The position numbers were made by a program, and so were the translations under genes. The notes below the pieces were generated by a model. That model was not told the DNA's origin, did no database searches, and was given only the letters and a program-made list of their open reading frames with translations. A stretch of DNA of 64,000 nt, taken from NCBI RefSeq assembly GCF_022919715.1, contig NZ_CP095042.1:3286001-3350000 (forward strand). Reading direction: 5' to 3'. The stretch comes from Agromyces sp. H17E-10 (lineage in GTDB: Bacteria; Actinomycetota; Actinomycetes; Actinomycetales; Microbacteriaceae). This document shows positions 31,949 to 35,038 of the stretch, piece after piece (position 1 is the first letter of the stretch; each line of letters opens with the position of its first letter).

Positions 31949-33022
31949 GTGGCACTCACCATCGGAATCGTCGGTCTCCCGAACGTCGGCAAGTCGACCC
32001 TCTTCAACGCCCTCACCAAGAACCAGGTGCTCGCGGCGAACTACCCGTTCGCGACGATCGAGCCCAACATCGGCGTGGTGAACCTGCCCGATCCGCGACT
32101 CGAGCAGCTCGCGGCGATCTTCGGGTCCGAGCGCATCCTGCCGGCCGCCGTGTCGTTCGTCGACATCGCGGGCATCGTGCGCGGCGCCTCGGAGGGCGAG
32201 GGGCTCGGCAACAAGTTCCTCGCGAACATCCGCGAGGCCGACGCGATCGCGCAGGTCGTGCGCGGCTTCGAGGACGGCGACGTCGTGCACGTCGACGGCA
32301 AGGTCGACCCGAAGTCCGACATGGAGACGATCAACACCGAGCTCATCCTCGCCGACCTCGAGACCCTCGAGCGCGCGATCACGCGCTACGAGAAGGAGGT
32401 CAAGGGCAAGAAGCTCGACCCCTCGGTGCTCGCGGCGGCCGTCGAAGCCCGCGACGTGCTCCAGGCCGGCACCCCGCTCTCGGCGTCGAAGGTCGACCTC
32501 GCGCCGATCAAGGAACTCGGGCTGCTCACGGCCAAGCCCTTCATCTACGTGTTCAACGTCGACGAGTCGGTGCTCACGGATGCCGCGAAGAAAGCGTCGC
32601 TCGCTGAGCTCGTGGCGCCGGCCGAGGCGGTGTTCCTCGACGCGAAGATCGAGTCGGAGCTCATCGACCTCGACCCCGAGGATGCGGCCGAGCTCCTCGC
32701 CTCGACCGGTCAGGAGGAGTCGGGCCTCGACCAGCTCGCCCGGGTCGGCTTCGATACGCTCGGCCTGCAGACCTACCTCACCGCGGGCCCCAAGGAGTCG
32801 CGCGCGTGGACGATCCACAAGGGCGACAAGGCCCCGCAGGCCGCCGGCGTCATCCACACCGACTTCGAGCGCGGCTTCATCAAGGCCGAGGTGATCTCGT
32901 TCGCCGACCTCGTCGAGACCGGCTCGGTCGCCGAGGCCCGCGCGAAGGGCAAGGCCCGCATGGAGGGCAAGGACTACGTCATGCAGGACGGCGACGTGGT
33001 GGAGTTCCGCTTCAACGTGTAG
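31949..33022 (+). CDS. ychF: Redox-regulated ATPase YchF
   Basis: 357-aa Obg-related protein. P-loop GLPNVGKST (about 8-16), switch [30 protein letters not shown] (Walker B DxxG region, about 71-90), and N-V-D-E (in YVFNVDESV) in place of the NKxD GTP-specificity motif, which explains ATP preference in this family. The C-terminal TGS-like domain ends FRFNV. It binds ribosomes and modulates translation and oxidative stress responses. GTG 31949 follows TAGACT by 8 nt. Its last 25 bp recur twice downstream, at 33931 and 34406, around small accessory genes. Position matches Rv1112. Confidence 0.95.
32998..33022 (+). repeat. ychF 3'-end repeat, copy 1 (native gene end)
   Basis: The last 25 bp of ychF. 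Core GTTCCGCTTCAACG is repeated at 33957-33970 and, with one change, near 34431-34445. Confidence 0.85.
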
Positions 33023-33046
33023 TCGCGCACGAGGAGGTCGAATCGC

Positions 33047-33484
33047 ATGCTCGAGATCGAGCCGGGAGGGGACGTCGTCGAAGCGACCTGCGACCATTGC
33101 GGGCAGCCGATGACCCGGGTGACCGGCTTCGTCTACCAGGATGGCGATGCGCACGCGATCTACATCGCCTCGTGCTATCACCACGACGGTCACGAAGTCT
33201 GGATCGACGGCGTGTTCTCACCGACCTGGGCTGACGACGCTGATGACCACTTCACATTCGGTTGTCGCGTCGGCCCGGTCGAGGGACAGGCTGAGCCGGG
33301 GGCGTCACTCGTGGCGGCGGCTGCTCCTTTCAGTGACTCCGCCACGTTCGGGCACAAGTTGACCCGGGACGAAGCGTTGGCGCACCCGAGGCTCGGTGAT
33401 TTTTGGGCGCTGGTCGATCATCTCCTCACGAACGACGCGGTCGTGTCGGCTCACATGTACGGGCCAGCGGCGGAGCTCGATTGA
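33047..33484 (+). CDS. Hypothetical CxxC protein in ychF-end accessory patch
   Basis: 145-aa protein of unknown function. N-terminal zinc-knuckle-like pair C-x2-C (ATCDHCGQ, about 17-22) followed by a domain rich in Tyr/His (YIASCYHHDGHEVWIDGVFSPTW) and a C-terminal helix (LTRDEALAHPRLGDFWALVDHLLTNDAVVSAHMYG). It is soluble, no signal. Base use is less GC-biased than neighbours at third positions, consistent with recent acquisition. ATG 33047 has GAGGAGG at a good distance. Comparable orphan proteins often sit beside toxin or immunity genes, but no toxin is visible here. Confidence 0.72.
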   Translation: MLEIEPGGDVVEATCDHCGQPMTRVTGFVYQDGDAHAIYIASCYHHDGHEVWIDGVFSPTWADDADDHFTFGCRVGPVEGQAEPGASLVAAAAPFSDSATFGHKLTRDEALAHPRLGDFWALVDHLLTNDAVVSAHMYGPAAELD

Positions 33485-33515
33485 CAGATCGAGTTTCGGT
33501 CCAACATCACGGCTC

Positions 33516-33905
33516 CTACCGAGTCGAGCGCCAGAAGGTTGGTCGCCACCAGTAGAGCGTCGTGAGGTCGTCCGGCCACTCGGCGTCACGATCGTCTTCT
33601 GCTTCGAACGAGTCCTGTTCGTGATCGATGGGTCGCCATCCGGAATCCAGGGGCTCTTGGTCAGTCGCCGAGCGGACCAGCCCCACGAATCGATCCTCGA
33701 TCGCTCCGTGCTCCGCATACGCGCGCTGCGAGTCGATGAGGCAAGGACGATTGGCGCCGCCTCTGTACTCCGGCCACCGGAGTTGGACAGCGTCGTCTTC
33801 CCAGAAGCACACGGCGCATATCTCGTATGATCCCGGTCGTTCGCTCAGTGTCAGATGGCCGCAGCACGGACACGGGTACGCAGCTGAGATGTTCGAGTCG
33901 GGCAC
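33516..33905 (-). CDS. CPCC family cysteine-rich protein
   Basis: 129-aa protein starting with the CPCC motif (AYPCPCCGHLTLSERPGSYEICAVCFWEDD): four cysteines in CPCC and ICAVC form a zinc-ribbon-like site, as in the Pfam CPCC family, followed by the family motif DDAVQLRWPEYRGGANRPCLIDSQRAYAEHGA. Such proteins are small, scattered across bacteria and frequent beside contact-dependent toxin/immunity loci; their function is unproven. It is in opposite orientation to its neighbours within the lower-GC ychF-end patch. Start ATG 33905; GC content below neighbours. Confidence 0.85.
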   Translation of the reverse strand: MPDSNISAAYPCPCCGHLTLSERPGSYEICAVCFWEDDAVQLRWPEYRGGANRPCLIDSQRAYAEHGAIEDRFVGLVRSATDQEPLDSGWRPIDHEQDSFEAEDDRDAEWPDDLTTLYWWRPTFWRSTR

Positions 33906-33930
33906 GACGCCACATTAGGCGCCGCCATAC

Positions 33931-33976
33931 GCCTATTCGCAACGGAATCCGGTGGGAGTTCCGCTTCAACGCGTGA
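33931..33976 (+). repeat. ychF 3'-end repeat, copy 2
   Basis: About 46 bp, sharing GGTGG-GAGTTCCGCTTCAACG with the ychF end and a longer stretch (TTCGCAACG ... CGCTTCAACG) with copy 3. Confidence 0.75.
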
Positions 33977-34036
33977 CCTGCTCCGGTCGTTGAGCGAGCG
34001 CGACGAGACGAAACGTCGACTTGTAAGCTCCCTCGC

Positions 34037-34369
34037 ATGAAGGGTGCTCCGGCTCGGCGCGTGATTCGCCTCTTCCCCGAATATGGGCGCGACTGGCCGC
34101 TGTGGGAGAACTCGACGCCGACGTGGGATGTCGGGTACACGACCACACCGGAGATGTACGGGTTGTCGGATGACCTCACGCGTCACATCGCCGAGTGGAA
34201 CGCGCTCTGGAACGCGAACTTCGATCCGTTCGATGGCTGGAAGGACGATGCGGCGCGCGAGCGATGGCGCGAGGAGGGCGTCGCCATCGCGGGGCGACTC
34301 GCTGCAGAGGTCGCTGACTTCGCCGATGTGTCGTACGAGCCTTGGCCGCTGCTGAGCCCGGACGAATAG
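34037..34369 (+). CDS. Hypothetical protein in ychF-end accessory patch
   Basis: 110-aa soluble protein of unknown function: RVIRLFPEYGRDWPLWENSTPTWDVGYTTTPEMYGLSDDL then an amphipathic helical half (HIAEWNALWNANFDPFDGWKDDAARERWREEGVAIAGRLAAEVADF). Rich in Trp. Related small proteins occur singly in actinobacterial genomes, in variable places; I recall no assigned role. It is flanked by the two best-matched ychF-end repeats (33931 and 34406), so it looks like a single-gene cassette. No clear Shine-Dalgarno (AGCTCCC precedes). Confidence 0.7.
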   Translation: MKGAPARRVIRLFPEYGRDWPLWENSTPTWDVGYTTTPEMYGLSDDLTRHIAEWNALWNANFDPFDGWKDDAARERWREEGVAIAGRLAAEVADFADVSYEPWPLLSPDE

Positions 34370-34405
34370 CCGACTCATGCGGCATCATCACGCACCGTCG
34401 GTGAG

Positions 34406-34450
34406 GCCTCTTCGCAACGTAACTCGGTGGAGGTCCGCTTCAACGTGTAG
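34406..34450 (+). repeat. ychF 3'-end repeat, copy 3
   Basis: About 45 bp: TTCGCAACG, then GGTGGAGGTCCGCTTCAACGTGTAG; ends in the same stop-codon sequence as the real ychF end. Confidence 0.75.
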
Positions 34451-34489: not shown

Positions 34490-35038
34490 ATGACCCTACC
34501 GACCCCGACCCTGGAGACCGAACGGCTCCTGGTCCGCCCGTTCGCCGACGCCGACGCCGACGATCTCTTCGCCCTGAACAGCGATGCGCACGTGCTGCGT
34601 TACTGGGACTCCCCGCCGTGGACCGACCGCGCCTCGATCTCGCGATTCATGGCCGGCTGCGAGCGGATGGCCGAGGACGGAACGGGCGCGCGAGTTGCGA
34701 TCGATCGTGCATCGGACGGCGCATTCCTCGGCTGGTGCACCTTCAACAGCTGGGACCCCGACTTCCGAAGCGCGTCGCTGGGCTTCTGCCTCACGCAGGC
34801 TGCCTGGGGCCAGGGCTATGCGACCGAGGCGGCCCGCGCCGTGCTGCAGTGGGCCTTCGACGCGCTCGACCTGAACCGCGTCCAGGCCGAGTGCGACACC
34901 CGCAACGCGGCATCCGCCCGGGTGCTCGAGAAGCTCGGTTTCGTGCGCGAGGGCACGCTCCGCGAAGACTGCATCGTCAACGGCGACGTGTCCGACAGCT
35001 GGGTGTACGGCCTCCTGCGGCGTGACTGGGTGGCCTGA
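34490..35038 (+). CDS. GNAT acetyltransferase (RimJ/RimL type)
   Basis: 182-aa acetyltransferase of the RimJ/RimL-like branch (Acetyltransf_3): TERLLVRPFADADADDLFAL start, acetyl-CoA pyrophosphate loop AWGQGYATEAARAVLQWAF (about 104-122; Q/R-x-x-G-x-G/A) and C-terminal NRVQAECDTRNAASARVLEKLGFVREG. Probably acetylates a small molecule or N-terminus. GGGAGG precedes ATG 34490. First gene of normal base composition after the ychF-end patch. Confidence 0.9.
   Translation: MTLPTPTLETERLLVRPFADADADDLFALNSDAHVLRYWDSPPWTDRASISRFMAGCERMAEDGTGARVAIDRASDGAFLGWCTFNSWDPDFRSASLGFCLTQAAWGQGYATEAARAVLQWAFDALDLNRVQAECDTRNAASARVLEKLGFVREGTLREDCIVNGDVSDSWVYGLLRRDWVA

Follow-up and report, generated by a model that had tools for sequence, protein, structure and literature searches.

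Integron-like cassette arrays at the 3′ end of ychF in Actinomycetes and their probable insertion by a large serine integrase

The window analysed here is a whole stretch of 64,000 nucleotides from contig NZ_CP095042.1 of Agromyces sp. H17E-10, an actinobacterium with a 4.25-Mb genome. It contains the gene ychF and, directly behind it, further copies of that gene's 3′ end with small genes between them. Comparison with related sequences indicates that the segment at 33023–34450 (window coordinates) is very probably an array of mobile cassettes, put at the ychF 3′ end in trans by a serine integrase of the large type. The new aspect is the minimal, mostly recombinase-less, integron-like cassettes at ychF, and a search of the open subset of PubMed Central found no description of ychF cassettes.

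The tail of ychF, GGTGGAGTTCCGCTTCAACG at 32998–33022, recurs at 33952–33976 with two mismatches and at 34426–34450 with one. An earlier reading of the window from its letters alone (the sequence-only reading) had reported the gene's end at two downstream positions; the copies are indeed there, with the repeated unit now refined to 49 bp. The roughly 45 bp that the second and third copies were said to share is a cassette-type left half joined to the tail. A 20-mer of the tail, allowed up to two mismatches, is found at these three places in the whole genome and nowhere else, always on the ychF strand, and the reversed-pattern control gave no match. The small genes between the copies were also correctly described as lower in G+C (63.4% and 64.3% in the two intervals; the window as a whole has 71.1% and ychF 68.0%), and the open reading frames for a CxxC, a CPCC and a Trp-rich protein were confirmed.

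The unit was defined by aligning 111 distinct distal copies from relatives, with position 0 set at the first G of GTGGAG. Conservation extends over 49 bp, from −25 to +23, and information drops abruptly outside these borders. The right half of the site is the end of ychF itself (V E F R F N V stop). The left-half consensus of the distal copies, AGAGGTTnnTCnGnnnCGGAACGTG, is unlike the native GACGGCGACGTG, and the distal consensus holds an inner inverted repeat, CGGAAC..GTTCCG, between the halves that is missing from the native one. Distal right halves vary in a mostly codon-like manner (GTG/GTC, CGC/CGG/AGG, TTC/TTT, AAC/AAT, GTN), as expected if each distal copy had once served as the end of ychF. 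A 49-bp weight matrix, whose scores for the three window sites are listed below, found 141 distal matches of at least 16 bits in the genus and family loci examined. Since the matrix was trained on these very sites, its independent figure is the background rate: no match of at least 14 bits in 3.3 million positions of reversed sequence. The features of the locus are:

31949–33022, + strand: ychF, the anchor gene (open reading frame); the first site takes its right half from the gene's last codons (about +2 onwards)
32974–33022, + strand: ychF-end site, attB/attL- or attI-like; 55 bits with the 49-bp matrix
32999–33000, + strand: predicted crossover GT of the ychF-end site, from crossover mapping on relatives
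33047–33484, + strand: cargo gene for a 145-residue CxxC protein (open reading frame; no Pfam match above the cut-off)
33488–33507, + strand: possibly one more copy of the tail, decayed (16 of 20 bases alike), lying between the CxxC and CPCC genes
33516–33905, − strand: cargo gene for a Cys_rich_CPCC protein (PF14206, E 1.9e-30)
33927–33976, + strand: cassette-end site 2, attR/attC-like, partly decayed; 24 bits, one extra tail base
34037–34369, + strand: cargo gene for a 110-residue Trp-rich protein (open reading frame; no Pfam match)
34402–34450, + strand: cassette-end site 3, attR/attC-like; 54 bits, predicted crossover GT at 34427–34428
34490–35038, + strand: GNAT-type acetyltransferase, the first gene after the array and chromosomal flank (open reading frame; name read from the sequence)

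The tail of site 2 reads GTGGGAG, with one extra base that would shift the ychF frame, and that of site 3 carries a single change from TTC to GTC. The stretch at 33488–33507 scores below 16 bits in the 49-bp scan and so counts as a hint only; if it is a decayed site, it may divide the first block into two cassettes. Two irregular arrangements were seen in relatives. At about +2091 to +2113 of locus L105 (G158), two tail sites stand head to head as a near-perfect palindrome, and class C cassettes (G411, G026, G255 and others) carry a second, degenerate tail, TCGCGTTCCGGTTCAACCTCT, 23 bp behind the first as a tandem half-site repeat.

Within the genus, a close ychF homologue (87–100% identity) is present in all 60 genomes, and the downstream DNA of 59 ychF loci was compared (window included, G050 left out, three loci with only ~1.5 kb). 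At least one distal site of at least 16 bits lies behind ychF in 15 of the 59 loci, the window among them, and sites also stand behind ychF in further family genomes. Cargo mostly differs between the genus arrays. A RhuM/Fic-type gene is common to G028 and G036, phnA lies behind ychF in both G014 and G046, and the distal site of G014 is identical letter for letter to that of an Agromyces cerinus contig (L290), which makes Agromyces the probable genus of the genomes compared. Comparing the regions downstream of ychF showed the same tail flanking mostly different cargo, with sites in 14 of the 58 other genus loci and across the class; the repeats are not peculiar to the window. The window's three cargo genes were tested as possible ancestral residents of the place and are absent behind ychF in the 58 other loci (mostly ~13–15 kb), bar two weak Trp-protein matches of 35–38% identity lying 2.9 and 5.5 kb away. 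In G014 (L051) and A. cerinus (L290), phnA occurs twice, once directly behind ychF (overlapping it in ATGA) and a second time beyond the distal site; the doubled gene looks as if a cassette had captured or duplicated its neighbour.

The taxonomic range was scanned over species genomes with the exact pattern of the cassette-type site, a method blind to altered sites, for example those of the window. It returned 109 stretches, all in the class Actinomycetes and spread over seven orders: 85 in Micrococcales, nine in Propionibacteriales, six in Mycobacteriales, three in Pseudonocardiales, two in Actinomycetales, one each in Glycomycetales and Streptosporangiales, and two without an order. These stretches held 122 pattern matches, of which 52 lie downstream of ychF on its strand (0.45–6.1 kb), two upstream and none opposite, while the other 68 have no ychF end in the stretch examined. 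At least two sites of 28 bits, counting the ychF end, are present in 83 of the 109 stretches, and viral contigs gave no exact match to the pattern. The arrays have the layout of integrons, with one site per cassette and a single orientation, except for minus-strand sites in G158 and G060. In G060 (L114 and L140, contigs C1 and C2), the ychF end and the start of its downstream region are repeated inverted ~16 kb away and again near the start of the second contig, which may be an assembly duplication or a real repeat.

Sequence variation within the tail follows the cassettes. Class A cassettes, assigned by eye from their downstream letters, start cgttattgacg or similar right behind the stop codon, and T at +14 (giving TTT) is found at 13 of 15 class A sites versus 18 of 204 other sites. 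We also examined the seven codons before the stop in ychF genes with <8% A/T at third positions in the body. Of 196 such codons in 28 genes with an array, 18 end in A/T; in 45 genes that lack a distal site, the figure is 4 of 315 (Fisher p 4.5e-5). Unfiltered, the counts were 31 of 343 (49 array genes) and 11 of 385 (55 without). The last codons of ychF evidently travel with the cassette behind them. The promoter-like class A start (cgttattgacg..cgttatacactggt..gtgatca) recurs directly behind the stop codon at 15 sites, and in G363 it precedes a pair that by inspection resembles HigB/HigA. The C-terminus of YchF is altered (e.g. VEFRHS or VEFRFSRA in place of VEFRFNV) in the array-bearing G026, G033, G038 and G292 (L374), which suggests that imprecise tails are tolerated.

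The point of exchange was mapped by comparing pairs of distal sites, drawn from 438 distinct sites of which 150 are native-like. Eighteen distal pairs have the same cassette before the site and different DNA behind it, and 45 pairs show the reverse. In the 18 pairs, the mismatch fraction is 0–0.22 from −8 to +1, then 0.39 at +2, 0.39 at +9, 0.56 at +11 and 0.61 at +20. In the 45 pairs it falls from 0.58 at −3 through 0.47 at −2 and 0.20 at −1 to zero at 0 and +1, and stays lower on the right side (0.09 at +2 and 0.18 at +9, up to 0.38 at +11). These mirror-image profiles point to a strand switch at or next to the nearly invariant GT. Exceptions are the pair G428b/L221, which differs at 0 and +1, and one pair within L227 that has no right-side difference; several pairs with the same cassette start also have identical last ten bases of the left half.

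Most clearly, Thermocrispum municipale (Pseudonocardiales) and Brachybacterium massiliense (Micrococcales) share an entire ~1.88-kb cassette at 99.0% identity, and its neighbours differ on both sides. The starts of the two copies differ at −3 and agree from −2, and their ends are the same as far as +10. Brachybacterium equifaecis and Kocuria soli have 3.5 kb in common at 95.5% identity, a block that ends at the site with the first right-half difference at +2. Two of the 15 shared-block pairs are alike on both sides and thus uninformative on the switch: G428/L235, where another site pair was picked up, and G199/L250.

No recombinase is visible in the window's own array, as the sequence-only reading had stated; the enzyme found on relatives' elements is a large serine integrase. 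In the array of G372, a 442-residue protein of this type (PF00239 and PF07508) starts 1 bp from the site and is read away from it. Most PDB matches of its profile are to serine integrases, transposon recombinases and resolvases (TP901-1, A118 and phiC31 are examples). A search across the family turned up serine-recombinase relatives in 171 of 398 genomes, and at nine of 34 compared integrase loci the 49-bp site lies 0–30 bp from the integrase start, on the opposite strand (L111, L188, L189, L186, L119, the truncated L187, Nonomuraea L237, Nocardia L253 and Brevibacterium L268). L237, L253 and L268 were found through the site scan and G372 through its array, the others via the integrase search. 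A class-wide search with E up to 1e-40 reached 80 of 394 genomes and added 29 loci; at three of these, among the best matches, the site is 6 bp from the integrase start, and a fourth integrase (G806) starts 34 bp behind ychF itself. In total, 12 of the 63 integrase loci compared have a site 0–30 bp from the integrase start. The nine site-linked integrases and that of G368 form one group in the tree (support 81/99), on which site linkage changes label twice against a shuffled mean of 8.0, with none of 500 shuffles as low. Elements spanning the distance from the ychF end to the integrase and its site measure ~7.0 kb in G372, ~12.7 kb in G093, ~7.7 kb in G135 and ~3.6 kb in G383, and the integrase-bearing element of G315 is ~24 kb long.

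Together, these comparisons suggest how the arrays would form. Each cassette circle would carry one 49-bp site, whose left half ends ..CGGAAC plus three bases and whose right half is a working ychF tail (GTG GAG TTC CGC TTC AAC GTN stop). The integrase would swap strands at the central GT, so that ychF would gain the cassette's own tail and stay intact, and the old tail would move to the cassette's far end, behind the cassette left half. Because right halves are interchangeable, the ychF junction would remain a target and successive cassettes would pile up in one orientation. The integrase would come from autonomous relatives, in which its gene lies right beside the site at the end of the cassette; that this enzyme performs the reaction, that it mobilizes cassettes in trans, that insertions followed this order and that the reaction may be reversible without a helper protein are all predictions of the model. 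As no ychF-type integrase was found in the window genome among the few candidates scored and both inner sites are altered, the window array is probably an orphan, fed in the past by what were probably transient elements.

The textbook means of shuffling single-gene cassettes is the tyrosine-integrase integron, which is, to our knowledge, poorly represented in Actinomycetes. We consider it rather likely that this class has a common counterpart based on a serine integrase, in which cassettes of one to a few genes form a floating pool, enter at one shared address, the last eight codons of ychF, and are traded between orders. Every cassette must rebuild the YchF end, and tail codon choice would therefore record which cassette came last. 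If this is true, a serine-enzyme route would explain the spread of small defence, toxin–antitoxin and unknown genes in Actinomycetes, and actinomycete genomes would offer a fixed address for seeking new cargo. It would also mean that integrases may write at a conserved gene end and leave the gene unbroken.

Several observations weigh against the proposed insertion by a serine integrase. The association of enzyme and site is partial: 25 of the 34 serine-integrase loci have no site of at least 14 bits in the piece examined, and 26 of the 29 class-wide loci lack an adjoining site, one of them abutting ychF and 25 having neither in the piece examined. The tree group has a bootstrap of only 81%, which is not firm, and includes the G368 integrase, which has no adjoining site and lies ~3 kb before the nearest one. 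In the window genome no ychF-type integrase was found among the few first-look candidates scored (4 of 18 and 4 of 14), and that genome has one weak Resolvase match, far away. Window copies 2 and 3 each bear a change that would alter the end of YchF, and relatives of the CxxC protein in 15 other genomes show no site within ~1.5 kb. Family loci were mostly picked for carrying tail copies, so their counts are not prevalences, and the pairs, codons and species compared are phylogenetically non-independent. The 28 codons preceding the tail differ as well, less strongly (47 of 784 in array genes and 30 of 1260 in empty ones), so part of the tail contrast may reflect which species bear arrays. Sequence comparison shows the sites, the arrays, the association of integrase and site, and the exchange of tails and of a whole cassette; no excision, circle or reaction was observed.

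The sequence-only reading had proposed successive insertions with replacement tails, either site-specific or homologous. Comparison of relatives upholds the site-specific half of this proposal; the homologous half is not supported, as shared cassettes diverge inside the 49-bp site. Homologous recombination would have a circular or linear DNA with a piece of ychF recombine with the chromosomal gene and leave direct end repeats, and longer ychF repeats do occur in two genus loci, G054 (57 residues at 93% identity within a 64-residue frame) and G020 (~28 residues). We nevertheless regard it as very improbable, for conservation stops at the 49-bp borders in the 111 distal copies, the left half of the cassette site does not come from ychF, and pairs with the same cassette break inside the site. 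Orientation is also mostly kept, as the counts downstream, upstream and opposite ychF (52, 2 and 0) illustrate, with minus-strand sites seen in the family set in G158 and G060. The arrays might otherwise be the residue of ordinary prophages or conjugative islands shrunk by deletion, the small cassettes being immobile remnants. The larger integrase-bearing elements at the same place (~3.6, 7.0, 7.7, 12.7 and, in G315, ~24 kb) and the altered sites of the window would fit such a history. It is very unlikely all the same, given that blocks of 1.3–3.5 kb, 95–99% identical in different families or orders, end at the site, that the Thermocrispum–Brachybacterium block has both ends in sites, and that viral contigs lack an exact pattern match.

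A true integron, with a tyrosine integrase IntI and attC sites, would account for the single site per cassette, the mostly uniform orientation and the small cargo of toxin–antitoxin, defence and acetyltransferase genes. It is almost certainly not the explanation: what stands beside the site is an integrase of the serine type, and three host tyrosine recombinases match none of the 356 array reading frames in a phmmer search, the probe set being limited to these three. Other candidates were also set aside. The window genome has six PF00589 matches, the nearest ~0.38 Mb from ychF, and a tyrosine recombinase was rejected as the agent; among the matches listed, PF00589 proteins occur in all 60 genus genomes. 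A third such protein (L036, G000:C1:2839140) was considered as a trans-acting candidate and dropped after the serine integrase was found; a Phage_integrase protein of similar score recurs in many genus genomes among the matches listed. A phage or plasmid vector was rejected as well, no match to the serine integrase in such records reaching 60% identity and no viral contig containing the exact site pattern. An attC geometry was dropped on inspection by eye, as the arm order looks reversed.

The insertion of cassettes at ychF by a serine integrase has partial precedents. Dehalococcoides ssrA islands are arranged in tandem downstream of a gene present once in the genome, and a direct repeat of that gene's end borders each island; some carry a CcrB-like serine recombinase (PMC3146451). 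The ychF cassettes are likewise bounded by gene-end repeats, with a serine recombinase on some and others without. As described there, ssrA islands have a second small recombinase, a six-gene integration module and 20-bp repeats, and lie within 100 kb behind ssrA in one genus (PMC3146451). The arrays considered here differ in their ychF target, their many ~0.5–3 kb cassettes, their 49-bp site and their spread over many families of one class. The ECC elements at rlmH start at 21 kb in size and carry ccrAB when complete (PMC6222049). SCC/ECC elements resemble the ychF system in their ~50-bp att sites with an inverted repeat in attR, comparable to the 49-bp site and the CGGAAC..GTTCCG of the distal consensus. 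They differ in that the target is the rlmH 3′ end, and ychF cassettes are small and form longer arrays; relatives' elements at ychF carry a single large serine integrase, absent from most arrays seen and from the window's. A pneumococcal prophage with 14-bp repeats also uses the neighbourhood of ychF for integration, lying upstream and altering the ychF promoter; the portion of that account available to us describes no cassettes (PMC6375853).

Integrons and integrase-less cassette clusters are arrays of small cassettes with one site each, and orphan arrays occur. The ychF arrays share with them the one-site small cassettes, the orphan arrays and similar cargo. They differ in using a serine and not a tyrosine integrase, in being anchored at a housekeeping gene, whose end has to be restored by every cassette, and in a site that we assume to be palindromic and double-stranded. 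By analogy, ychF arrays work like SCC/ECC and the Dehalococcoides ssrA islands with an integron-like layout, and by target and enzyme they fall outside those families as tested.

Cargo was surveyed on the 356 array frames, which were called by a simple rule, so that some are spurious; 260 passed a codon-bias score and 224 were scanned, 36 having been left out by hand (including integrases, the G292 set and the greater part of G347's long first stretch). Pfam was run on the 224 proteins in four sets and PADLOC on 179 of them in three, with the 25 commonest families considered per set. Among these families are helix-turn-helix and other antitoxins, HigB and zeta-like toxins, HepT, PIN, Fic/RhuM and Abi proteins, together with type I and MamI restriction, tetratricopeptide repeat and ATPase proteins, acetyltransferases, ABC exporters and many domains of unknown function. 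Homologues of the window's own cargo are scattered. Counting the window's own, 16 of 306 class genomes encode the CxxC protein, whose best relatives are 76–82% identical (79% in Enemella evansiae). Trp-rich homologues were found in 25 of 319 family genomes, again with the window's included; those of G130 and G210 have neither site nor ychF in 8–14 kb, and the rest have no site within ~1.5 kb, apart from the two best. The best, in another genus (G290, 76%), lies on the other strand ~0.5 kb behind the last site of a ychF array, and the second, in a third genus (G292, 65–66%), lies ~0.12 kb behind ychF and before a site.

On the chromosomal flank, an untouched junction of ychF with the GNAT gene matching the window was not found among the 59 genus loci, where the nearest close GNAT homologue elsewhere is ~2 kb behind ychF. 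Homologues with 79–84% identity lie 2–4 kb behind ychF in seven genus loci (G013, G014, G016, G019, G024, G027 and G035).

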